From Flavobacteriaceae bacterium (GTDB lineage Bacteria; Bacteroidota; Bacteroidia; Flavobacteriales; Flavobacteriaceae): 44,799 nt of DNA. Both the position numbers and the translations under genes were made by a program. The first letter of the stretch is position 1, and each line of letters starts with the position of its first letter. Where the stretch lies: assembly GCA_027081505.1 (NCBI GenBank), contig JALWKK010000072.1, positions 1 to 44,799 on the forward strand, given 5' to 3'. Below the pieces are notes generated by a model. That model had not been told where the DNA came from. It did not search any database and saw only the letters and a program-made list of their open reading frames with translations. Below are positions 24 through 20,294 of this stretch, piece after piece.

Positions 24-1528
24 GTGTCAATCCTTGTGGAATTCGGAGGTGGGTTGAAAGGAAGAATTACCAATCCAATACACAAGCGCAATACCGTGTC
101 AATCCTTGTGGAATTCGGAGGTGGGTTTAATTAATTCGGAATTAAGAGCCTGCCTGCCTATCTGCCGAAGGCAGGTAGGTAGGTGTCAATCCTTGTGGAA
201 TTCGGAGGTGGGTTGAAAAACTCAATAGCCTGCCCGAACATACCTTTAGGTATGGGCGGGTGGAATTCGGAGGTGGGTTGAAAGATTATTCTATTGAAAG
301 TATAAGACGGCTCAATTCAGTGTCAATCCTTGTGGAATTCGGAGGTGGGTTGAAAGCAATCTTTGGAACCATTCACTTAGGTCTAAAATATGGTGTCAAT
401 CCTTGTGGAATTCGGAGGTGGGTTGAAAGTAAAGATGATAAAAGAAATACAAACAGCCTTTAATGAGTGTCAATCCTTGTGGAATTCGGAGGTGGGTTGA
501 AAGATAAAATATGCTAATAATAGAAGACTTAACCAAAGGTGTCAATCCTTGTGGAATTCGGAGGTGGGTTGAAAGACAATGGAAAATTTAATCGAAACTT
601 TAAGAAGTAAAAGTGTCAATCCTTGTGGAATTCGGAGGTGGGTTGAAAGTTATGTATAACCATAATAAGCTTAAAGCCGAATTATCGTGTCAATCCTTGT
701 GGAATTCGGAGGTGGGTTGAAAGTACGCCGGTGCACCCGAAGATCTGCCATCTTTTGAGTGTCAATCCTTGTGGAATTCGGAGGTGGGTTGAAAGCCCAA
801 ACCCACTACGTTAAAAAAAAGATTAAAAGACAGTGTCAATCCTTGTGGAATTCGGAGGTGGGTTGAAAGGCAGGTGGTACGGATTTGCTTGAAATATTAG
901 AAAGGTGTCAATCCTTGTGGAATTCGGAGGTGGGTTGAAAGAGTTCTGAAAAATCTCATAGGAAGTTTCATTCTATTTGTGTCAATCCTTGTGGAATTCG
1001 GAGGTGGGTTGAAAGTGCTTACTACTCGGTTATAATTTAGAAATTGCAAGTGTGTCAATCCTTGTGGAATTCGGAGGTGGGTTGAAAGAGCGGTTTGTTT
1101 TCAAAATCGGGTGAGATGTATAAGCAGTGTCAATCCTTGTGGAATTCGGAGGTGGGTTGAAAGAAACACAACTATTGATTTTGTTAACCCTATTGTTAAG
1201 TGTCAATCCTTGTGGAATTCGGAGGTGGGTTGAAAGTTGGGAGATTTATTGGACGAAAGTATAGTACTCCAGTGTCAATCCTTGTGGAATTCGGAGGTGG
1301 GTTGAAAGAGTAATGCTGTCGAGTTTGGAGACTACATCAACGGGTGTCAATCCTTGTGGAATTCGGAGGTGGGTTGAAAGAGTTTAAAGCTTCTAATGAA
1401 TTAATTGAAGTTCTGAAAGTGTCAATCCTTGTGGAATTCGGAGGTGGGTTGAAAGATTACCGCTCCGATTGGTGTTGCAATAAATGCCATTGTGTCAATC
1501 CTTGTGGAATTCGGAGGTGGGTTGAAAG
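24..1528 (-). CRISPR. Type III-A associated CRISPR array, about 21 repeat units; plus-strand repeat GTGTCAATCCTTGTGGAATTCGGAGGTGGGTTGAAAG (37 nt), spacers 35-38 nt; inferred transcription on the minus strand
   Basis: Repeats start at 24, 96 (3' end degenerate), 183 (last base changed), 248 (5' 13 nt replaced), 320, 393, 467, 539, 613, 687, 759, 833, 905, 979, 1052, 1127, 1200, 1272, 1344, 1419, 1492; adjacent to cas2/cas1. Strand is inferred (see findings). Confidence 0.98.
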
Positions 1529-1642
1529 AGCAAATTGTAAATAACTCACATAAAAACAATAACTTACACTATGTTTTTTTGACATCAAAATCAAGATGTC
1601 AAAGAACTTTCGGGACTTTTGTGTATTCAAAAATAACTAAAA
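1529..1642 (-). promoter_or_regulatory. Putative CRISPR leader between the array and the cas2 3' end
   Basis: AT-rich, non-coding 114 bp; contains the perfect inverted repeat TTTGACATC-N8-GATGTCAAA (1578-1586/1595-1603); eroded repeats lie at the opposite end of the array. Confidence 0.55.
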
Positions 1643-1948
1643 TCAGATAAACAAAACTACTTTTTTGCTAAAAATAAGATCTATATCTATTTTCTTTTTT
1701 TTAGAACCTTGGTTAAAAACCACTATTTTTTCTATTACCGCTTCCGGAATAGGTAAAATAATTATCCTGTCGTTTTTATCCAACAGCTTTGCCGATACTG
1801 TTTTTATTTTTGTTACGGCTTCTTTTGTGGTTTTTCCGGCAAAAACAGAGTATTGTACGCGGTAAAACCCCGATGTTTTTAACAAATCTATTAGCCTGTT
1901 TCTTTTTTTGTTATCGCTAATATCGTATGTTATTAAGTAATTCTGCAT
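1643..1948 (-). CDS. cas2: CRISPR-associated endonuclease Cas2
   Basis: MQNYLITYDISDNKKRNRLIDLL...YRVQYSVF: Cas2 fold with YDISD; adjacent to and overlapping cas1 and next to the array. Start could also be 1954. Confidence 0.95.
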   Translation of the reverse strand: MQNYLITYDISDNKKRNRLIDLLKTSGFYRVQYSVFAGKTTKEAVTKIKTVSAKLLDKNDRIIILPIPEAVIEKIVVFNQGSKKKKIDIDLIFSKKVVLFI

Positions 1949-2918
1949 ATTCAAAATTTTTAATGTGGGTTGCTAATTGGTAACAGTCTAACTGTATGTG
2001 TGTCATAGGTGTTCTTTTTTTTCGGTTTCGCAGTATTTTCTTTTTATGCAAATAATCTAAAAAAAGTGTGGTTAATTTTTTTTTATATTTTTTTGTAAGC
2101 CTGTCTTTTTGGTCTAAAAAAGCCAGCGTTTTTGTTTTTTCTTTTTTAAAAAACAATAATACAATATGCTCTGCCCAAACCCTGTATGGCTCTATTAGGT
2201 CGTAGGTTAGTGTTGTTTTGCCGTGCCTGTCGGTGTGCATAATGCCGCAAAAAGGGTCTAAACCGGCAATAATTAAGCATTTTGTAATTTGCCTGTATAA
2301 AATACCGTAACAATAGTTTAAACAAATGTTTACCGGATTGGTTGCGTTTTTGTAATCTCTTTTTTCGGGTTTTACCTTTTTGTTAAACAGTAAAAAGTAA
2401 AACTTAAAAAAAAATTTTGATGCTTGTGCTTCTAAGATTCTTATTTTTTGAAAAATTACTGCCGGTTTATTATCGTTACTTAACCGTAGGGTTTCTTTTA
2501 ATTGTTTTGTTTGTAACCGGATAGTTTTTTTGATTGTTGTAATATCGGTGCTGTTTTTATATTTTACCGATAGTAATTTTTCTCTGTTGCTTATTTTTTC
2601 TTCAATAAGGTTTACAACATACGCTAAACTTAAGTTTGATAAACAAAACAAATTTTGTTTTTTTCTAATGGTACTAATAGAGCTGTAATTGGGCGACCAT
2701 AAAATGGCTTCAATGGCGATAGACGACTCTATAAATAACGGAGCGCCTGTTTCAATAAGGGCTACCATAGCCTTGGTGCTTATTCTTGCATTGGCGGTAA
2801 TATGTAATGCGGTAATATGAAGCAATGGTATTTCTTTTTTTTCTTCTTCCGTTTCACAAATTAATACTCCTTTAGAAAAAGATATTTGTGTACCCGGATT
2901 TGTAATGTATATGTGCAT
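1917..2918 (-). CDS. cas1: CRISPR-associated endonuclease Cas1
   Basis: 333 aa; MHIYITNPGTQISFSKGVLICE...; Cas1-like N-terminal beta domain, C-terminal GLDPFCGIMHTDRHGKTTLTYDLIEPYR motif. Confidence 0.96.
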   Translation of the reverse strand: MHIYITNPGTQISFSKGVLICETEEEKKEIPLLHITALHITANARISTKAMVALIETGAPLFIESSIAIEAILWSPNYSSISTIRKKQNLFCLSNLSLAYVVNLIEEKISNREKLLSVKYKNSTDITTIKKTIRLQTKQLKETLRLSNDNKPAVIFQKIRILEAQASKFFFKFYFLLFNKKVKPEKRDYKNATNPVNICLNYCYGILYRQITKCLIIAGLDPFCGIMHTDRHGKTTLTYDLIEPYRVWAEHIVLLFFKKEKTKTLAFLDQKDRLTKKYKKKLTTLFLDYLHKKKILRNRKKRTPMTHIQLDCYQLATHIKNFEYAELLNNIRY

Positions 2919-2975: not shown

Positions 2976-3695
2976 TTGAATAAAACACCTTATTTAACGC
3001 TTTATTTTAAACAAAACTTGGCGCCTTATGAGGTGCCGTTGTTGCGTTCGGCTATTCTAAAAGCGGTGCAAAAACAGCATGTATTGTATCACAATCATAA
3101 AGGCGGTATGTTTCGTCAAGATTATCCGCTAATACAATATAAAAGCATTAAAGGAAAAGCCGCCGTAATTTATCTGTCCGACGGTGTAGAAGCAATACCG
3201 TTACTGTTTAACGCAACCGATAAAATTATTTGTTTGCCCAAATACAACAAAGATATTAATTTATCGGTTGAAACAATTGTTTCAAAAAATTATAGGCTTA
3301 TCCCGTCTCAAGAGGCATTGTTTTTTTATAAAATAAGAAATTGGATGCCCTTACATAACGAGCATTATGTAAAATATCACCAAATAGAAGAACCAAACGA
3401 CAAACTCGCTTTTTTAAAACAACATCTAATTAAAAATATGATTACTTTTATGAAAGGAGTGGGTGCATATCCTTGCAGTAATATTGCCGTTGATGCTTTT
3501 GAAATAAAAAAAGAAAAGTGGATATCGTTTAAAGGAATAAAATTTAAAGCCTTTGATGTGTTTTTTAGCACCAATGCTTTTTTACCTCCTCATATAGGCT
3601 TGGGTAAAGGAGCTGCACATAATTACGGAGTAATTATACCGGTAAAAAAACAGATACAACAACAAGTAAAATTACAACTGAACAATGAAGAATAA
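2976..3695 (+). CDS. cas6: CRISPR-associated endoribonuclease Cas6
   Basis: 239 aa; C-terminal glycine-rich PPHIGLGKGAAHNYGVIIPV typical of Cas6 RAMPs; first gene of the csm operon; TTG start in the ORF track. Confidence 0.85.
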   Translation: MNKTPYLTLYFKQNLAPYEVPLLRSAILKAVQKQHVLYHNHKGGMFRQDYPLIQYKSIKGKAAVIYLSDGVEAIPLLFNATDKIICLPKYNKDINLSVETIVSKNYRLIPSQEALFFYKIRNWMPLHNEHYVKYHQIEEPNDKLAFLKQHLIKNMITFMKGVGAYPCSNIAVDAFEIKKEKWISFKGIKFKAFDVFFSTNAFLPPHIGLGKGAAHNYGVIIPVKKQIQQQVKLQLNNEE

Positions 3696-6246
3696 AATAT
3701 ATTTGGCTGGATTGCTGCACGATATCGGAAAGTTTTGGCAACGCGCCGATGTATATGAAAAGGATAAAGGATGGCAACAACTCGATAAAAATACCTTTAC
3801 GGAAAGCACTTTTTGTAAACAATACAAAGGAGTGTATTACTATAAGCACGTATTATGGACGGCACAATTTATAGAGCGGGTTTTAAACATAAACGAACGC
3901 TTTATAAAAACCGAAGCAAAAGAAACACCCGAAAGCCTAATACAATTAGCCGCCAAGCACCACGCTCCCAACTCGCCCTTGCAAAACATTATTGCCTGTG
4001 CCGACCACCTGTCCAGCGGTATGGACCGTAACAACGACAAACTTACACAAGATGCCCTGAAAGAAAACGACGACATTGGCGATTGGATAAACACCCCACT
4101 GTTTTCCATATTTGAAAAGATAGGTATGCCGTTGGAAGAATACCAACAGCGCAACAAGTTTAGATTTCCGGCAGAAATTCTTGATGTAGAAAAAATTATG
4201 CCCGTTAAAAAAGATAGCGGCTATGAGATGAAAGCAAAATATGAAGAGCTGTGGGCTAAATTTGAAGCAGAAGTTCAAAAATTAGCCGAAAAATCCGATA
4301 ATATCATCAAGAACAAAGCATTTTCAGACACCTTGTTGTATGTGATGCAAAAATATACCGTTTATGTGCCGGCAAGCACACAAAATTATCCCGATGTATC
4401 GTTATTTGACCACAGTAAAACAGTTGCTGCTTTTGCAGTTTGTTTATACGATTATTTAAAAGAAAATAAGCAACTTAACGATTTTAAATACCGTTACGCT
4501 TCGTTTAAGGACAGTACCGACAAACCGTTCTTACTCTTCGGTGCCGATTTAAGCGGAATACAAAACTACATTTACAACATTGTGTCAAAAAACGCAGCCA
4601 AAAACCTAAAAGGACGCTCGTTTTATCTACACTTGGTAACCACCACCGTTATTAAAAAAATACTCGACGAACTCGATTTATACGAAGCCAACGTAATATA
4701 CAATTCCGGTGGCGGATTTTTTATGCTTTTGCCAAACACCCGATTTGTAAAAGATAATTTAGTACGCGTAAAAAAAGAAATAGACGAAGAATTTGTAAAC
4801 AAATTTTACGGCGAATTGTATTTGGCTACGGCTCATACTCCCGTATCTTACTCACAAATTTTTAATAACGGCTTAAACGAGGTTTGGGAAGCAATATTTA
4901 CAGCATTGGGCAACGATAAAAACCAACGATTTAAAAACTACATAAAGGATAACTACACCACAACCTTTACACCTTTCGGCGAAGCCGGAGAAATAAAAAC
5001 CGATGCCGTAACCGGTATGCCATTACCGGAAGGAAAAGGCGTAAAAACCGATGTAGGAATTGTAGATAAAACAACCAAAGACCAGATAGAAATTGGTAAA
5101 TGGTTAAAAAAAACCCAATATTGGTACATATTTAAAGGCAAGTGGAGTAAAAAAGAAAAAAATGCCTTTCAATTTTTGGAATACACCCACGTTTTATCTG
5201 AAAAATCCGACATTCGAATAGATTTTGAAGGCGTAAAACAACTAAAAATAAATGAGGTAGAAAATTTTATCGATGAAAAAGTAAAACATTCCGCTCAAGG
5301 CTTTGAATTTTACGGCGGAAACACCTATCCGGCTGACGAAAACAACAATCCCAAGCCCTATGACCGACTCACCAAAGGCGAATACAACAAACTGGCAGTA
5401 GTGCGAATGGACGTAGATAACCTTGGCTACATTTTTAAAAACGGTTTTTTACTCAAAGACCGCACGTTGAGTCGCTACTCGCAATTAAGTCGGAATTTGG
5501 ATTTGTTTTTTAAAGGATATTTAACCAAAATATGGGAAAACAACGAATTGTATCAAAAACATACGGTTATCGTATATGCCGGTGGCGACGATTTGTTTCT
5601 CTTGGGCGATTGGCAAGTGGTTATGAATTATGCCCGTAGAATCCGAAACGATTTCAGACAATACGTTTGTCAAAATCCATTCCTTACACTCTCGGGCGGC
5701 ATTATCATTACACCACCCAAATATCCCGTACTTACGCAAGCCGAAAAGTGCGAAAAAGAAGAAAAAACCGGAAAAAGCTATGCGTGGAGAACAAAAACCG
5801 TAGCTTATTTGGATAATGACGGAAATAAACTGCCGGAAGTAAAAAAACAAAAAGATGCACTTGGATTATTTAATACCTCATTGGCGTGGGAAGTAGAATA
5901 TAAAATGATTGAAGACAAAGCAAATGAACTGAAAGAAAAAATCGATAAAGAAAAACTACCCAAAGCACTCCTGCAAAAAATAATGACCTACTACGAAATG
6001 TCGGGGCTTGAAAAAAAAGGAAAATTTACCAACAAACGCATAATTTGGCTAATGGCATACGACTTTGGACGAATGAAACAACGCCACAAAGACGAAAAAG
6101 AGTTTTTGGAAAACCTTTTGCTTGACGGTATAGAAAACAAGTGGGAGCGAACCCAACATGATGAAAAAAAATACCACAGCCTAAAATTATATGCCTTAGC
6201 CGCACGCTTGGCAGAACTGAAAATACGAGACAAAAAACAACAATAA
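3685..6246 (+). CDS. cas10: Type III-A CRISPR-associated protein Cas10/Csm1 (HD + GGDD cyclase)
   Basis: 853 aa; LAGLLHDIGKFWQRAD (HD), VIVYAGGDDLFLLGDW (GGDD palm domain). Confidence 0.97.
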   Translation: MKNKIYLAGLLHDIGKFWQRADVYEKDKGWQQLDKNTFTESTFCKQYKGVYYYKHVLWTAQFIERVLNINERFIKTEAKETPESLIQLAAKHHAPNSPLQNIIACADHLSSGMDRNNDKLTQDALKENDDIGDWINTPLFSIFEKIGMPLEEYQQRNKFRFPAEILDVEKIMPVKKDSGYEMKAKYEELWAKFEAEVQKLAEKSDNIIKNKAFSDTLLYVMQKYTVYVPASTQNYPDVSLFDHSKTVAAFAVCLYDYLKENKQLNDFKYRYASFKDSTDKPFLLFGADLSGIQNYIYNIVSKNAAKNLKGRSFYLHLVTTTVIKKILDELDLYEANVIYNSGGGFFMLLPNTRFVKDNLVRVKKEIDEEFVNKFYGELYLATAHTPVSYSQIFNNGLNEVWEAIFTALGNDKNQRFKNYIKDNYTTTFTPFGEAGEIKTDAVTGMPLPEGKGVKTDVGIVDKTTKDQIEIGKWLKKTQYWYIFKGKWSKKEKNAFQFLEYTHVLSEKSDIRIDFEGVKQLKINEVENFIDEKVKHSAQGFEFYGGNTYPADENNNPKPYDRLTKGEYNKLAVVRMDVDNLGYIFKNGFLLKDRTLSRYSQLSRNLDLFFKGYLTKIWENNELYQKHTVIVYAGGDDLFLLGDWQVVMNYARRIRNDFRQYVCQNPFLTLSGGIIITPPKYPVLTQAEKCEKEEKTGKSYAWRTKTVAYLDNDGNKLPEVKKQKDALGLFNTSLAWEVEYKMIEDKANELKEKIDKEKLPKALLQKIMTYYEMSGLEKKGKFTNKRIIWLMAYDFGRMKQRHKDEKEFLENLLLDGIENKWERTQHDEKKYHSLKLYALAARLAELKIRDKKQQ

Positions 6247-6275: not shown

Positions 6276-6722
6276 ATGAGCTATAATCAACAATACCAAC
6301 AAAGAAGAAGCAATCGGCACCATAACAATCGAGATAACATAAACCTACCTGAGTTTAACCAAAAATGGATAATCGAAGGTGCAGACGAGCAAATGGTAGA
6401 ATTTTGTGATAAATTGGGGGAAGTGCTTAAAGATAAAGATATTTCATCATCGCAACTTCGAAATATTTACGGTGAAATTATGCGTATAAAACAGAAAGGG
6501 TACGAAAAATGCAAAACCGATTTTGTTTTATTAAAACCCAAAGTGGCTTACAATGGTAGTCGTTTACAAAAAGATTGGCAAAAGAAATTTTTTAAAAATA
6601 ATTTTATAAATAAAGTATTTAATCCGGCTACCGATGCTGTTAAAGATAACCAAACCTTTAACCATTTTCAAAAATTCTTTGAAGCCGTATTGGCTTATCA
6701 TAAATACCACGGAGCCAAATAA
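6276..6722 (+). CDS. csm2: Type III-A CRISPR-associated protein Csm2 (small subunit)
   Basis: 148 aa, between cas10 and csm3; LRNIYGEIMRIKQ... and KFFEAVLAYHKYHGAK C-terminal helix typical of Csm2. Confidence 0.88.
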   Translation: MSYNQQYQQRRSNRHHNNRDNINLPEFNQKWIIEGADEQMVEFCDKLGEVLKDKDISSSQLRNIYGEIMRIKQKGYEKCKTDFVLLKPKVAYNGSRLQKDWQKKFFKNNFINKVFNPATDAVKDNQTFNHFQKFFEAVLAYHKYHGAK

Positions 6723-6754
6723 TTTTTTTTTAATAAAACTCAAAATTTACAATT

Positions 6755-7453
6755 ATGGAAAAACTACAACAAAAAATAATAATAAAAGGAAAAATAAAAG
6801 CATTAACCGGCATGCATATAGGCGGAACAAACCAACAAATGGGTATCGGCGGACCCGATAATTTGGTTATTAGAAATCCGTTGTCGCAAAAACCCATTAT
6901 TCCCGGCTCATCGCTTAAAGGAAAAATGCGAGCATTGTTGGAGCTTAGTATGGGAAAGTACGGTAAAGACGGCGGTGTGGGTAATGATGAAGACATAACA
7001 AAACTGTTTGGAAAAAGCGGTGGCGATAACAATTCACACGCTTCCCGGCTGTTGGTTAGAGATGCCGAAATGCATATCGAAAACGAAGAAGATTGGAACG
7101 ATACCGATATGCTCTATACCGAAGCCAAAACCGAAGTGGTTATCAACCGGTTAACATCAAAAGCAACACCACGCACATTTGAACGCGTGCCTGCCGGAGC
7201 AAAATTTAAATTTGAAATGGTGGTAAATGTAGTATGCGAAGACAATGAAGTCAATGAAAAAGCTAAAGAATTATGCGAACTCCTGGCGCAAGGAATAAAA
7301 TTGGTGCAAGACGATGCACTGGGTGGTCATGGCTCAAGGGGCTACGGACAAATTAAATTTAAAATAGAAAACCTAACCACCAAAGGATGGATAAATGACA
7401 AATGGGAAAACCAAGAAACAGATAACGAGATTAAGGCGTATTTCGAAAATTAA
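6755..7453 (+). CDS. csm3: Type III-A RAMP Csm3 (backbone, target RNase)
   Basis: ALTGMHIGGTNQQMGIGGPDNLVIRNPLSQKPIIPGSSLKGKMRALLE; GGHGSRGYGQIKF glycine-rich loop. Confidence 0.96.
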   Translation: MEKLQQKIIIKGKIKALTGMHIGGTNQQMGIGGPDNLVIRNPLSQKPIIPGSSLKGKMRALLELSMGKYGKDGGVGNDEDITKLFGKSGGDNNSHASRLLVRDAEMHIENEEDWNDTDMLYTEAKTEVVINRLTSKATPRTFERVPAGAKFKFEMVVNVVCEDNEVNEKAKELCELLAQGIKLVQDDALGGHGSRGYGQIKFKIENLTTKGWINDKWENQETDNEIKAYFEN

Positions 7454-7462
7454 TTCATTAAA

Positions 7463-8521
7463 ATGAAACTAAACATTGTAAAACTTTCGTTTAAACAAGC
7501 CGTTGCCTTAACCGGAAGACGATCCGGAAATTTTATCGAAGAAGTAAATACCATTGCTTCCGATACTATTAAAGCGGCTTTGGTATCTTGTTTAAGCATA
7601 AATGAAGAAAAGCTCTTAGAATTAAACCAAAATCTTATTGTCTCGTCGGCTTATCCTTTTTTAAACCATATCCTGTTTTTTCCAAAACCTTATTTACCGC
7701 ACCCTTTTAAGAAAGCCGAAACAAATCCGGCACATCAAAAAAACATCAAAAAAATTCGGTTTATCGATCAAAAATTGTTTGAAGCGTATATCCAAGCTCG
7801 CCACGAAATAGACTTGTACGCGCAAGAACAGTTGGATAATTATAAATTTTTAATATCCGAAGCCAACAAGGAATTTATAAATAACATTCGCCAAAAAGAC
7901 CAATCGTTTAAAGTATTGATTTCCGAAACCGAAGAACACGTAACCTTGGGCGTATCTCCCTATTTTGAAACGGAAAAAGGCGATCCGTTTTATGTTAGTC
8001 GCACTTTTTTTCACGATAGCAAAGAAATATATACCGGGCTTTGGTTTGCCTATTTTTTAAAAGATGAAAAAAGCAATACGGTTTTTAAACAAGCTCTACA
8101 ACAACTCTCGCTCTCGGGTTTGGGTGCCTACACAACCTACGGTAACGGACTGTTTGAGTATGAGCACACCCAAACCGAGATTACCCTGCCACAAGACGCA
8201 ACACATCTGTTAACCTTGTCAAAATACATACCCACCGAAGAAGAGATAAACAACCATATATTGGAAAAAGGCAATTACAACATTTTAATAAGAAACGGAT
8301 ACATTGCCGGTGCCAAGAACGAAAGCAAACGCCACTGGCAAAAAAAACAAGTATGGATGATAAACGAAGGAGCCGTGTTTGAATCCGACACACTTGAAGG
8401 CAAAAACCTTGAAGTTGCCGAAGTCAAAGAAGCAAATAAAACAGAACACCGTGTTTACCGCGACGGCAGACCCTTTGCCATACCTTGCAAAATACCCGAA
8501 AACAATGCAAACAATGAATAA
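7463..8521 (+). CDS. csm4: Type III-A RAMP Csm4
   Basis: 352 aa; SLSGLGAYTTYGNGLFEY glycine-rich region; position between csm3 and csm5. Confidence 0.92.
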   Translation: MKLNIVKLSFKQAVALTGRRSGNFIEEVNTIASDTIKAALVSCLSINEEKLLELNQNLIVSSAYPFLNHILFFPKPYLPHPFKKAETNPAHQKNIKKIRFIDQKLFEAYIQARHEIDLYAQEQLDNYKFLISEANKEFINNIRQKDQSFKVLISETEEHVTLGVSPYFETEKGDPFYVSRTFFHDSKEIYTGLWFAYFLKDEKSNTVFKQALQQLSLSGLGAYTTYGNGLFEYEHTQTEITLPQDATHLLTLSKYIPTEEEINNHILEKGNYNILIRNGYIAGAKNESKRHWQKKQVWMINEGAVFESDTLEGKNLEVAEVKEANKTEHRVYRDGRPFAIPCKIPENNANNE

Positions 8522-9638
8522 AAAAATAAACAGCCGTACCATCGTTTTTAAAGCCGAAACCGTATCACCTGTTCATATAGGAAGTGGCGAAACCTTGCAA
8601 GAAGGTGTCGATTTTTTTACAGGTGATAATAAAATTGGTAAAGTGGACCCGAAAAAAATACTAAACGTAATCGGCGAAGACAAAATACAATGGTGGACTG
8701 GCAAAATTGAAAACGGCGAAAGCATTTGGAACGACTTGAAAAACAATTACCGTGTAGCATTGGAAGGTGTGTGCAAAGAAATTTTACCCAACAAAACCGG
8801 AACAGTAAAAAAACAACTAAAAGAACAATTTAGAAACCAATATACAAAAAACCCGGTATTGCCCGGAAGTAGTATAAAAGGAGCGTTAAGAACGGCTATT
8901 GTTTCACCTGAAATTATCAAGAAATACAAAAACAAACAAGAAAATTTTCGAGCTGTTACATTCAAGGACAGACAAGAGAAAATAAAATTTCAAAAAGAAG
9001 ATAAGTTATTCGGTGATTTACTAAAAATTAATACAAAGCAAAATTTTAATCCGCAAAACGACATCTTCAAATTTATAAAAATAGCCGATGCCGAAATACC
9101 CAAAGAAAACCTCTCGGTAAGTATGTTTCAAACATTAAATATGAATAGAAATGATGAATGGCAAATAAAAAATCAATTATCCACATTGGTAGAAGTAGTC
9201 GATGCCGCATTTGAAATAAAAATGGTGATTGATGAACGCTTTTTTGAATATAACCGGCTGGGAATTAAAAATAAAGAGGATATAATCAAACGAATAAATG
9301 AACATACTCTGTGTATTGCAAAACAGGAGTTTAAGGCGTTTAAAGGTGATTTAGATGATGGGTATATCGATGAAAATATTGGGGAAACCATTATAAAACA
9401 ATACAAAAAAATTGTTGATATATGCCAAAGCGAAAATGTGGCGGTGTTTCGTATGAGTAGCGGCAGCGGTTGGGATTATATGACCGGCGGTTGGCTCAAA
9501 GAAATTACTTCCGATAATGAATGGAATAAAATAAAAAAACTGCTTGCTCGTAGAGGTTATGAAGACTTTTCATACCCTAAAACCCGTCGTTTGTTACACG
9601 ACTACCGCTTACCCGGATTTGTGAAAATCGAGTTTTAA
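8505..9638 (+). CDS. csm5: Type III-A RAMP Csm5
   Basis: TVSPVHIGSGETLQEGVDFF..., NPVLPGSSIKGALRTAIVSPEI; start reset from 8379 to ATG 8505 (or 8514) at the end of csm4. Confidence 0.93.
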   Translation: MQTMNKKINSRTIVFKAETVSPVHIGSGETLQEGVDFFTGDNKIGKVDPKKILNVIGEDKIQWWTGKIENGESIWNDLKNNYRVALEGVCKEILPNKTGTVKKQLKEQFRNQYTKNPVLPGSSIKGALRTAIVSPEIIKKYKNKQENFRAVTFKDRQEKIKFQKEDKLFGDLLKINTKQNFNPQNDIFKFIKIADAEIPKENLSVSMFQTLNMNRNDEWQIKNQLSTLVEVVDAAFEIKMVIDERFFEYNRLGIKNKEDIIKRINEHTLCIAKQEFKAFKGDLDDGYIDENIGETIIKQYKKIVDICQSENVAVFRMSSGSGWDYMTGGWLKEITSDNEWNKIKKLLARRGYEDFSYPKTRRLLHDYRLPGFVKIEF

Positions 9639-9657: not shown

Positions 9658-11055
9658 ATGAAAATTTTATTCAACAACATAGGAAACAGGCATTTAAGAT
9701 ACACCTTTGCCGGAATCGACAAACAAGGAAATCCGGTTGAGAAAAATCTTTACAACGAAAAATTTGAATTTAAAACGGTAACCTTGCAATTATTGGAAAA
9801 TTTTGAGCAAGAAAAATATAAAATTCAAATTGAAATTTTAAAGAAGTACCTTGGCGAAAAAAATAAAATCGATTATCCGGACAGAATTATTTTATTTGGC
9901 ACCGACCAAGAAAAAACAGCCCAAGAACAGAAACACACTAATCAAGATACTTATTGGACGGCTTTGATAGTAAAAAATATCATCGAAGAAAAATATAAAA
10001 TTCCGGTTGAGGTAATTAAAATTGAGCGAAACCCATCAGACGAGAATGATTTAATACCCGTTTATCAATCATTATTTAAGCAAATCAAGAACAACTATTC
10101 GCAATCGGAATGGGTATTTCTTGATGCAGGCGGCACACCGCAACAAAAATTGGTTTGCAAACTGTTAATGCCCGAAATACATAGCAATACAAAAATTGAG
10201 TATATTTCTAATGTGGAAGGAGTTGATAAAAACGATTTACGAGAGAAAAACACGGAGGAATTAGAAAAAATTTTTATTAAAAAAAATGTTAAGGAATTGA
10301 TAAAAAACTATCATTATGCTTCGGCTTATCAATTACTGTGTAAAGTAGAACAGAAAAATCCGGCTTTACCGTTTATTAAATTGGGAAAATTACGAAAACA
10401 AAATGTTTGGAAAGATATAGCTGGAGAATTTGATAAGCCAAATCGAAAAAACAAAATGCTGGTTGATTTTATCGATAAAATACCACCGATAAATTTACAA
10501 GACTTAGAAGAAAATTTGGATAAACTTGATTATTATGTTTACGGGGAATTTTTAGCAAGAGCAGCACTTTATCTTGAAAATAATGATAATAACAATTTCA
10601 TCTTACAGTTTCAACAATCGTTAGAGCATCTTTTAATTGCTTTTATTCATAAATACGCTCAAGAAACCGGAAATACCATAAAAAAAGATTTTGACGGAGT
10701 AGGGGAATTTTTAAAAGCAGAATTTCAAATTGAAACCAATGCGGTTAGTACACAGTTGGAAGCGGTAATAAAAATTACCGAAGAAGAAAATTTACACACG
10801 GTAAAACAACTCCTTGAATTGTATGCAACGATTAATAATTCTTATCACCGACATATTAAACAGAAAGGAGTAGAAAATAAGAATTCTATTCAAGGACTTG
10901 ATAGGTTACGCAATAAAATAGCGCATAGCTCAAAATACATCGAAAAAATACCCAAAAACATCTTAGATGCTTTTAATAAAATAACTCAATTAACTCGTTT
11001 GGATAAATGCACTTATGCTAATCTAAATGGTAAAATAACGGATTTGTTGTATTAA
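9658..11055 (+). CDS. csm6: Csm6-type CARF-HEPN ribonuclease (cyclic oligoadenylate effector)
   Basis: 465 aa; N-terminal WVFLDAGGTPQQKLVCKLL (CARF motif), C-terminal LDRLRNKIAHSSKYI (HEPN R-x4-H); last gene of the csm operon. Confidence 0.88.
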   Translation: MKILFNNIGNRHLRYTFAGIDKQGNPVEKNLYNEKFEFKTVTLQLLENFEQEKYKIQIEILKKYLGEKNKIDYPDRIILFGTDQEKTAQEQKHTNQDTYWTALIVKNIIEEKYKIPVEVIKIERNPSDENDLIPVYQSLFKQIKNNYSQSEWVFLDAGGTPQQKLVCKLLMPEIHSNTKIEYISNVEGVDKNDLREKNTEELEKIFIKKNVKELIKNYHYASAYQLLCKVEQKNPALPFIKLGKLRKQNVWKDIAGEFDKPNRKNKMLVDFIDKIPPINLQDLEENLDKLDYYVYGEFLARAALYLENNDNNNFILQFQQSLEHLLIAFIHKYAQETGNTIKKDFDGVGEFLKAEFQIETNAVSTQLEAVIKITEEENLHTVKQLLELYATINNSYHRHIKQKGVENKNSIQGLDRLRNKIAHSSKYIEKIPKNILDAFNKITQLTRLDKCTYANLNGKITDLLY

Positions 11056-17850: not shown

Positions 17851-18207
17851 ATGGAAAAAAAGTGTCCTGAATGCGGGAGAAAAATTATAGGCAGAGCCGA
17901 TAAAAAGTTTTGCAACGACGGTTGCAGAAATGCTTATAATAATTCGCTTAACAAGGACACTAAAAACCTCTTAAGAACCATTAATAACAGGTTACGAAAA
18001 AATTACCGAATATTAGAATCGCAAAACCCGACAGGAAAAACCAAAATAACTAAAGCCAAGTTGTTGCAGTTGGGTTTTGATTTTAGTTATTTTACCTCAA
18101 TTTATACTACCAAAGCCGGCGCAATGTATTATTATGTCTACGATCAAGGATATTTGCCGTTAGACAACGGATTTTACTTATTGGTAAAAAGAGAATCAAA
18201 CGGTTAG
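17851..18207 (+). CDS. Small zinc-ribbon protein (DUF2116-like)
   Basis: CPECGRKIIGRADKKFCNDGCRNAYNN: CxxC...CxxxC at the N-terminus; ATG directly follows the upstream stop. Confidence 0.65.
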   Translation: MEKKCPECGRKIIGRADKKFCNDGCRNAYNNSLNKDTKNLLRTINNRLRKNYRILESQNPTGKTKITKAKLLQLGFDFSYFTSIYTTKAGAMYYYVYDQGYLPLDNGFYLLVKRESNG

Positions 18208-18212
18208 CTTTT

Positions 18213-20294
18213 TTATTCCGTAATTTTCATCTCGTCTATTAACCGGTCTGCTCCTGCATATTTATCAATAATAAACAGTACATAGCGGATGTCCACCATA
18301 ATGTTTCTGCAAATTTCCGGATCGTAATATATGTCGCTCATAGTGCCTTCCCAAACGCGGTCAAAATTAAGACCTATTAAATTTCCGTTTGCATCAATAG
18401 CGGGACTTCCGGAGTTTCCGCCTGTAGTATGATTTGTTCCTAAAAAGCAAACCGGCATTTTTCCATTCTCATCGGCATACTTTCCATAATTTTTTGAAGC
18501 ATATAGGTCTTGTAATTTTTGAGGAACATCAAATTCATAATCGCCGGGAATGTATTTTTCCATCACACCTTCAAGATATGTTACCGGATGATAAAGAACT
18601 CCGTCTTTAGGAGCATAGCCTTTTACCTGCCCGTAAGTAACTCTAAGTGTACTGTTAGCATCAGGGAAATATCGCTCATTTGGCATTATTTCCATTTGTG
18701 CCTTGATATACAATTTTTGAAGATTATTTATTTTGTCGTTTAATGTAAAAAACATCGGATTTATACTCCGGTATAGCTCTTCAAAATAGGGTTTTGCGTA
18801 TTGATATGCAGCATCGTTATTAATTTTTGAAATAATTTCTTGAGGTGTTCCGGTAAGTATTTGTGATGTATTTTTAAAAGAAGTAAATCCGGTTTTATCG
18901 TAAATGGAAGCATCTGCATTTTTTGTATAAAGTGGCATAATGGCATTAAAAACTCCTTTGTCCACTTGGGCATTGTAGTTTTTAAATATTTTTTTTGCGC
19001 GGGATAAAACTTTTTCTTTTTCTTTATTAAAAACAGCTTCTCCTCGATAGTAAGCTTCTTCAAGTTTTCGAAGATTATACATAAGTTGCATCAACTCGTT
19101 GTTTCTAACAAAGACTTCTAAAAAATTAGACCGTTTTACGGCAAAGGGTTCAATTTCTTTATACAATTTATCAAATTGAGTTAGCAGGTTGCCGTATTTT
19201 TCAAAAAGCCCTTTTTTATTTACTTTTTTAAGAAACATTTTTTCAAAATCTTTCTTTTTGGCGATAGCATTTGTTTTTTTCAAACCCAGATTTTCACCTA
19301 TCCATTTTTTCCAATAATTTGCTATTCTGGCTTGTTTTGATGCGTATTGAATACGTATTTTATCATCTTCTTTCATCGCTTTGTCAATAACTTGCAAGGC
19401 TGCTTCACGAATAGCAATATTACTTGGGTTAATTTTTTGAGTGATTTGCTCTACGGCTACTGCCGGAAGGTATTCGTTGGTTTTTCCCGGAAACCCGAAC
19501 ACCAACGTAAAATCGCCTTCTTTTATTCCTTTTATGGAAATTGGCAAAAAATGTTTCGGCTTAAAAGGCACGTTATCAAAACTGTATTTTGCAGGCTTAT
19601 TATCTTTTGAAGCATAAATACGAAAAATCGAAAAATCGCCGGTATGTCTTGGCCAAACCCAATTGTCTGTATCGCTACCAAACTTACCTATACTTGCCGG
19701 CGGCGCTCCTACCAATCTAATATCTTCATATCGTTCGTAAACAAATAAAAAATACCGGTTTCCTTTATAGAATGCTTTTATCTTGGTTTTTTGCCAAACT
19801 TCTTTTTTAGTTGCTTTTTCTACAGCATTGCTGTTTGAATTTATTTTAGATTGTTTTATTCTTTCGGGCATTGCATCACTAACTCCAAGCAAAACTTGTT
19901 CGGTTACATCTTCTATCCGAACGATAAAATCTACATACAACCCTTCGTTTGGAAGTTCATCTGCATAACTTTTTGCCCAAAAACCATTTTTAATATAATC
20001 GTTTTCGAGAGTTGAATGCGATTGTATCTGACTAAAACCGCAATGATGATTGGTAAGCAACAATCCCTTAGGCGAAATTACCTCTGCGGTACATCCTCCG
20101 TTAAAATGAACAATGGCATCTTTTAAAGAAGAAGTATTAACATCATAAATATCTTTGGCAGTAAGGTTACTACCCAGTTGCTTCATTTCTTGTTCGTTCA
20201 TTCCCTTAAGAAGGGACGGAATCCACATTCCACCTTGTTGTGCAACTGCAGTGAGACCAAAAAATAATACAAATAAAAAAGTAACGCTTTTCAT
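18213..20294 (-). CDS. S46 family serine peptidase (DPP7/DPP11-like)
   Basis: Signal peptide MKSVTFLFVLFFGLTAVAQQGGMWIPSLL; TAEVISPKGLLLTNHHCGFSQIQ; LGTNHTTGGNSGSPAIDANGNLIGLNFD. Confidence 0.95.
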   Translation of the reverse strand: MKSVTFLFVLFFGLTAVAQQGGMWIPSLLKGMNEQEMKQLGSNLTAKDIYDVNTSSLKDAIVHFNGGCTAEVISPKGLLLTNHHCGFSQIQSHSTLENDYIKNGFWAKSYADELPNEGLYVDFIVRIEDVTEQVLLGVSDAMPERIKQSKINSNSNAVEKATKKEVWQKTKIKAFYKGNRYFLFVYERYEDIRLVGAPPASIGKFGSDTDNWVWPRHTGDFSIFRIYASKDNKPAKYSFDNVPFKPKHFLPISIKGIKEGDFTLVFGFPGKTNEYLPAVAVEQITQKINPSNIAIREAALQVIDKAMKEDDKIRIQYASKQARIANYWKKWIGENLGLKKTNAIAKKKDFEKMFLKKVNKKGLFEKYGNLLTQFDKLYKEIEPFAVKRSNFLEVFVRNNELMQLMYNLRKLEEAYYRGEAVFNKEKEKVLSRAKKIFKNYNAQVDKGVFNAIMPLYTKNADASIYDKTGFTSFKNTSQILTGTPQEIISKINNDAAYQYAKPYFEELYRSINPMFFTLNDKINNLQKLYIKAQMEIMPNERYFPDANSTLRVTYGQVKGYAPKDGVLYHPVTYLEGVMEKYIPGDYEFDVPQKLQDLYASKNYGKYADENGKMPVCFLGTNHTTGGNSGSPAIDANGNLIGLNFDRVWEGTMSDIYYDPEICRNIMVDIRYVLFIIDKYAGADRLIDEMKITE

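Follow-up and report, generated by a model that had tools for sequence, protein, structure and literature searches.

Guide orientations that allow pairing with mRNA are an expected property of CRISPR systems that see RNA. A survey by Vink et al. (2021) found 65% coding-strand targeting for type III systems, together with a template-strand bias for type II (PMC8482600). In the type III systems of Thermus that lack a reverse transcriptase (RT), acquisition is unbiased and draws on both strands, and the bias arises through survival of the cells that have functional spacers (PMC7515739). The type III coding-strand bias is thus already published, and the locus described here is a strong, controlled example of it from the Bacteroidota, in an under-described group.

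The type III-A locus

The DNA analysed here (the window; 44,799 nucleotides) is contig C72 of a 2.12-Mb assembly of 112 contigs that is 78.8% complete, and base 1 of the window is the contig edge. It contains a complete type III-A (Csm) CRISPR-Cas locus of the ordinary kind from a Flavobacteriaceae-like bacterium, free of RT, with a Cas10/Csm1 gene and a Csm2-Csm5 operon, and with cas6, cas1, cas2 and an array adjoining:

24..1528, minus strand: type III-A CRISPR array; 21 repeats and 20 spacers; crRNA-sense repeat CTTTCAACCCACCTCCGAATTCCACAAGGATTGACAC
24..284, minus strand: trailer end of the array; degenerate repeats at 96-132, 183-219 and 248-284, element-bearing spacers at 133-182 and 220-247
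1529..1642, minus strand: leader, between the array and cas2; holds TTTGACATCTTGATTTTGATGTCAAA within a 36-nt block that is identical in the same-genus genome G005
1643..1954, minus strand: cas2 (TIGR01573; PF09827)
1917..2918, minus strand: cas1; no RT domain
2976..3695, plus strand: cas6; Cas6b N and C domains
3685..6246, plus strand: cas10/csm1 (TIGR02578, 605 bits); HD and GGDD present
6276..9638, plus strand: csm2, csm3, csm4 and csm5; Csm2, 3, 4 and 5 each above cut-off
9658..11055, plus strand: csm6-like gene; weak Pfam match, G005 orthologue in the same place

The cas1 and cas2 genes overlap, with no gene between them. The earlier note on this DNA was correct that Cas1 has no fused RT; moreover, RVT_1 had no match in the assembled genome (79% complete, a distant RT being possible), and no second Cas1 was found there, so that the product of 1917-2918 is the sole Cas1 of the assembly. 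The csm6-like product matches the Csm6 6H domain at E 3.8e-4, which is under the gathering score, and has a syntenic orthologue in G005. The orthologous locus of G005 has the same architecture, a Cas10 that is 89% identical and a near-identical repeat, and that genome also has a second, distant type III contig.

Two further observations concern neighbouring genes and other systems. In G005, minus-strand genes to the left of the array (contig C136; L049 6360-6960) resemble a toxin-antitoxin pair, as judged by eye. In the window's own genome, contig C51 breaks off after the start of a cas9-like gene (18091-18542, end of L284; MKRVLGLDLGTNSIGWALVEIN), and from this start the host probably has a type II system as well.

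Direction of transcription

The 37-nt repeat GTGTCAATCCTTGTGGAATTCGGAGGTGGGTTGAAAG is present in 21 copies at 24-1528, of which 18 are perfect; the three altered copies, with 3, 1 and 9 mismatches, are all at the left end. Eighteen spacers are ordinary (35-38 nt), and the two at the left end carry a palindromic element. Altered repeats at the left only are what a leader-distal end would show. At the other end, the 114 nt between the array and cas2 are conserved in G005; this conservation takes in the leader-repeat junction ATTTGCTC and the 36-nt identical block, within which lies an inverted repeat (TTTGACATC...GATGTCAAA). Among related type III arrays of the Bacteroidota, repeats end at the 3′ side in TTAAGAC, TTACGAC, TTGAGAC or similar, and the window repeat agrees with these ends once it is reverse-complemented (...GGATTGACAC). 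Taken together, the altered repeats at the left, the conserved leader at the right and the repeat ends of the relatives bear out the earlier proposal of minus-strand crRNAs with the 5′ handle ATTGACAC, and minus-strand transcription of the array is a well-supported prediction.

The opposite direction would produce the handle GTTGAAAG and crRNAs that are mostly sense and unable to pair with mRNA. The plus-strand repeat does terminate in a plausible handle of this sequence, and a scan of the leader detected no sigma-70-like promoter, although the scan used the E. coli consensus only and Bacteroidota promoters fall outside it. Plus-strand transcription is nevertheless extremely improbable, because it would place the altered repeats and the conserved, cas2-adjoining leader at the wrong ends and would leave a type III array largely non-functional. 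It also runs against the relatives: with these oriented by repeat end, three or more mismatches occur in the last repeat, on the TTAAGAC side, of 13 arrays and in the first repeat of no array.

The palindromic elements interrupt the trailer end of the array at window positions 133-262. One of them, CCCGAACATACCTTTAGGTATGGGCGGG, has one copy in the array and six tandem copies (with at most three mismatches) at the end of contig C54 of the same genome (53040-53342; L009 3041-3343). Two of the intervals in that tandem hold AATTCGGAG(G/A)TGGGTTGAAAAACTCAATAG, a match to the 3′ half of the CRISPR repeat. The C54 tandem is a hybrid of array repeat and palindrome, and contigs break at both the C54 and the array sites.

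Strand bias of the spacers

The earlier note had argued that the spacers are sense-coding on the plus strand from a stop-free frame in each of the 18 ordinary spacers, from six listed peptides, and from a hand count of about 55% purines. All of these are present in the sequence, with purines measured at 54.8%, but the minus strand is open in 17 of the 18 spacers. Stops number 44 on the plus strand and 39 on the minus, and open frames 30 and 28; a purine excess is seen in 12 spacers against 6 below half (P 0.24). Some open frame occurs in 85% of random 36-mers of 33% GC and in 94% of 36-mers antisense to coding sequence. Stop-free frames and purine content were thus rejected as strand markers, the two strands being alike, and they hold almost no strand information.

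The case for a bias rests instead on codon statistics and on related arrays. The score of each spacer was the codon-usage log-likelihood of the plus strand less that of the minus strand, with the three frames summed and the model drawn from the genes of the locus itself; of true sense fragments of host genes, 87% receive a positive score. By this measure 15 of the 18 window spacers favour the plus strand (binomial P 0.0075, Wilcoxon P 0.004, sign-flip P 0.0016). The excess persists against dinucleotide-shuffled spacers (P 0.019), and so the signal is not one of purine skew alone. A preference for reading-frame phase, suggested by 12 of 18 window spacers in frame 0, was rejected, since the pooled set is distributed 75/78/78.

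For comparison, a Cas10 alignment scan of 84,980 species genomes yielded 80 loci, and from these and G005 we drew 30 arrays with 470 distinct spacers, mostly Bacteroidota III-A-like and oriented by repeat end alone. (Orientation by repeat start was wrong for two arrays, L116 and L130, both clearly reversed in score.) The crRNA scores as antisense to coding sequence for 344 of the 470 spacers (P 2e-24; excess over dinucleotide shuffles, P 3e-16), the mean score is positive in all 30 arrays, and a mixture estimate puts the antisense fraction at 0.845 (0.795-0.89; array bootstrap 0.79-0.91). Twenty consistently oriented type II arrays, from genomes of the same order, served as the negative control and yielded 221 of 481 spacers, a fraction of 0.475 (0.415-0.535) and 10 of 20 arrays. 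Because the type II arrays are flat, the signal is not a product of the codon method.

Within the related arrays no effect of spacer age was found: the bias does not change between leader and trailer (rho 0.002), and the first leader-proximal spacers are already biased (0.875, n=30). It also varies little with the acquisition module, being 0.87 in loci with CAPP, 0.84 in those with neither RT nor CAPP, and 0.845 where no cas1 was seen in the locus; the single RT-Cas1 array gave 0.985 (n=11). In eight related type III loci from Bacteroidota, the gene for CAPP (CRISPR-associated primase-polymerase), which is BT4734-like, is located between the two genes cas1 and cas2 or immediately ahead of cas2, and an RT was rejected as the identity of the gene between the relatives' cas1 and cas2:

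L082 18343-19356: CAPP-like gene; others in L086, L091, L094, L095, L117, L125 and L126

Homologues of the spacer targets

No exact or near protospacers were found in phage records, plasmid records or genomes of the genus. Patterns degenerate at third positions, searched in IMG/VR, led to two target families, while those for the spacers starting at 357, 724, 796, 1089 and 1309 had no matches. The spacers concerned, with a third that is tentative, are:

870..904, plus strand: spacer, plus sense (AGGTDLLEILE); gene of ~155 aa in siphophages of IMG/VR, flanked by terminase and tape measure
1456..1491, minus strand: leader-proximal spacer, minus sense (MAFIATPIGAVI); phage tape-measure genes, best match 31/36 nt, 14 contigs
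796..832, plus strand: tentative plus-sense spacer (PKPTTLKKRLKD); phage C5-cytosine methyltransferase gene (PKPFNLTKRLKD)

Spacer 870-904 is identical at 30/35 nt to its homologue in L175 and at 29/35 in L177, and the phage gene encodes GGTDLLEILE; the flank at the phage site is unlike the repeat of the array (2/8). Spacer 1456-1491, which adjoins the leader and is thus the newest, points the other way. Its 14 matches of 'ITAPIGVAINAI' were rejected as plus-sense because a long ORF (up to 1081 aa, with the motif AFIATPIGAVI) runs opposite to the plus strand of the spacer, and in L177 this ORF encodes a tape-measure protein (PHROG 3336, E 1.7e-17). The claim that each of the 18 spacers is plus-sense accordingly fails for this spacer, the plus strand of which is antisense to the phage gene. 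The 'peptide' of the newest spacer is an antisense frame of the tape-measure gene, an illustration of how peptide-like frames in single spacers mislead. Both target genes have the same direction in L177, so that spacers 870-904 and 1456-1491 are in opposite orientations within one gene cluster. For spacer 796-832, the peptide score only equals the best shuffled control. The earlier note's check for an even split of protospacers between strands therefore stands at two clear homologues, one each way, and one tentative plus-sense case.

The phages L177, L175, L169/L176 and L181 belong to a siphophage family of IMG/VR in which the terminases and the tail modules are related, and which has homologues of two or three spacers. 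The family of L177 and L175 is a candidate predator of the host.

With spacer 1456-1491 corrected by its homologue, 14 of the 18 window spacers favour the plus strand (two-sided P 0.03, one-sided 0.015), which matches the rate of the related arrays. The earlier proposal, that the spacers are sense on the plus strand and the minus-strand crRNAs antisense to mRNA, is thus upheld by codon statistics for most of the spacers but not for all: about 80-85% of the array is antisense to phage genes, and it includes some passengers in the wrong orientation, spacer 1456-1491 among them.

Origin of the bias

A likely scenario starts with leftward transcription of the array from the leader at 1529-1642. 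Cas6 would cut the repeats, and in the resulting crRNAs the handle AUUGACAC would be joined to the complement of a plus-strand spacer. Phage DNA is probably taken up by Cas1-Cas2 without regard to its orientation, and most of the spacers that cells retain would be those with a crRNA able to pair with phage mRNA, as only these activate Csm/Cas10/Csm6. Such retention would lead to an array that is ~80-85% antisense to phage genes. Of the two causes offered by the earlier note, selection suffices, and an acquisition preference has no positive evidence of its own from this array. We consider it likely that this is an RT-free III-A locus with minus-strand transcription, random acquisition followed by selection, and mostly antisense spacers; for the bias itself, random acquisition and then selection at the level of the effector is the best explanation.

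It might be argued that the window array has no real bias at all, that chance accounts for the open frames of 18 short spacers and that the plus trend is noise or purine skew. The similar stop and open-frame counts on the two strands, the non-significant purine test and the 1:1 result for the two clear protospacer homologues are what this would predict, as is the score of G005, where 4 of 8 spacers show no bias, although eight spacers are uninformative. It is very unlikely, however, given a codon test (P 0.0016) whose signal exceeds dinucleotide composition, a skew in the same direction in 30 of 30 related arrays, and a flat type II control. Another scenario is that the bias is made at acquisition, with Cas1-Cas2 or an associated factor favouring the transcript-antisense orientation without an RT, for example through transcription-coupled single-stranded DNA. 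The presence of the bias in the first leader-proximal spacers and its flatness along arrays would fit, as would transcription-correlated RT-free acquisition in S. epidermidis, described in a review (PMC9048733), but a flat profile is no guide to whether selection or biased acquisition is at work. Similarly, the comparable level in RT-free loci with different acquisition modules could be read in its favour, yet likeness across dissimilar modules speaks for the effector that they share and not for the module. Because the newest spacer of the window array is on the wrong strand, and because RT-free type III of Thermus takes both strands in the absence of selection (PMC7515739), we think a bias made at acquisition unlikely. 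The broader version, in which RT-free III-A loci of Bacteroidota set the transcript-antisense orientation at acquisition through Cas1-Cas2 or a host mechanism, at ~85% regardless of RT or CAPP, is decidedly unlikely.

Comparison with known systems

Unlike RT-Cas1 type III systems, which acquire from RNA, the window has no RT fused to Cas1, nor is one seen in the 79%-complete genome. The CAPP type III loci of Bacteroidetes (PMC8211822) are related Bacteroidota loci, and eight of our relatives have the CAPP-like gene; the window locus differs in having nothing between cas1 and cas2. A further parallel is Thermus thermophilus (Artamonova et al. 2020; PMC7515739), which likewise combines an RT-free Cas1 with a strong strand bias among retained spacers, and in which spacers acquired later, next to the leader, can be passengers that give no protection. 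Acquisition in Thermus was followed in laboratory experiments, whereas the arrays here are natural ones of another phylum and were only read.

As in the type III systems of Vink et al. (PMC8482600), the crRNAs here can pair with transcripts, type III being the strongest of the types in this respect and type II not behaving so. Their mean of 65% comes from mapped protospacers, whereas the value of ~85% here comes from a codon test without protospacers. Such a test can be used to orient arrays and to detect RNA-targeting when no protospacer is known. Together with the type II control, it extends the rule of retaining mRNA-complementary spacers to Bacteroidota III-A loci without an RT, at a level of ~85% that is above the published mean.
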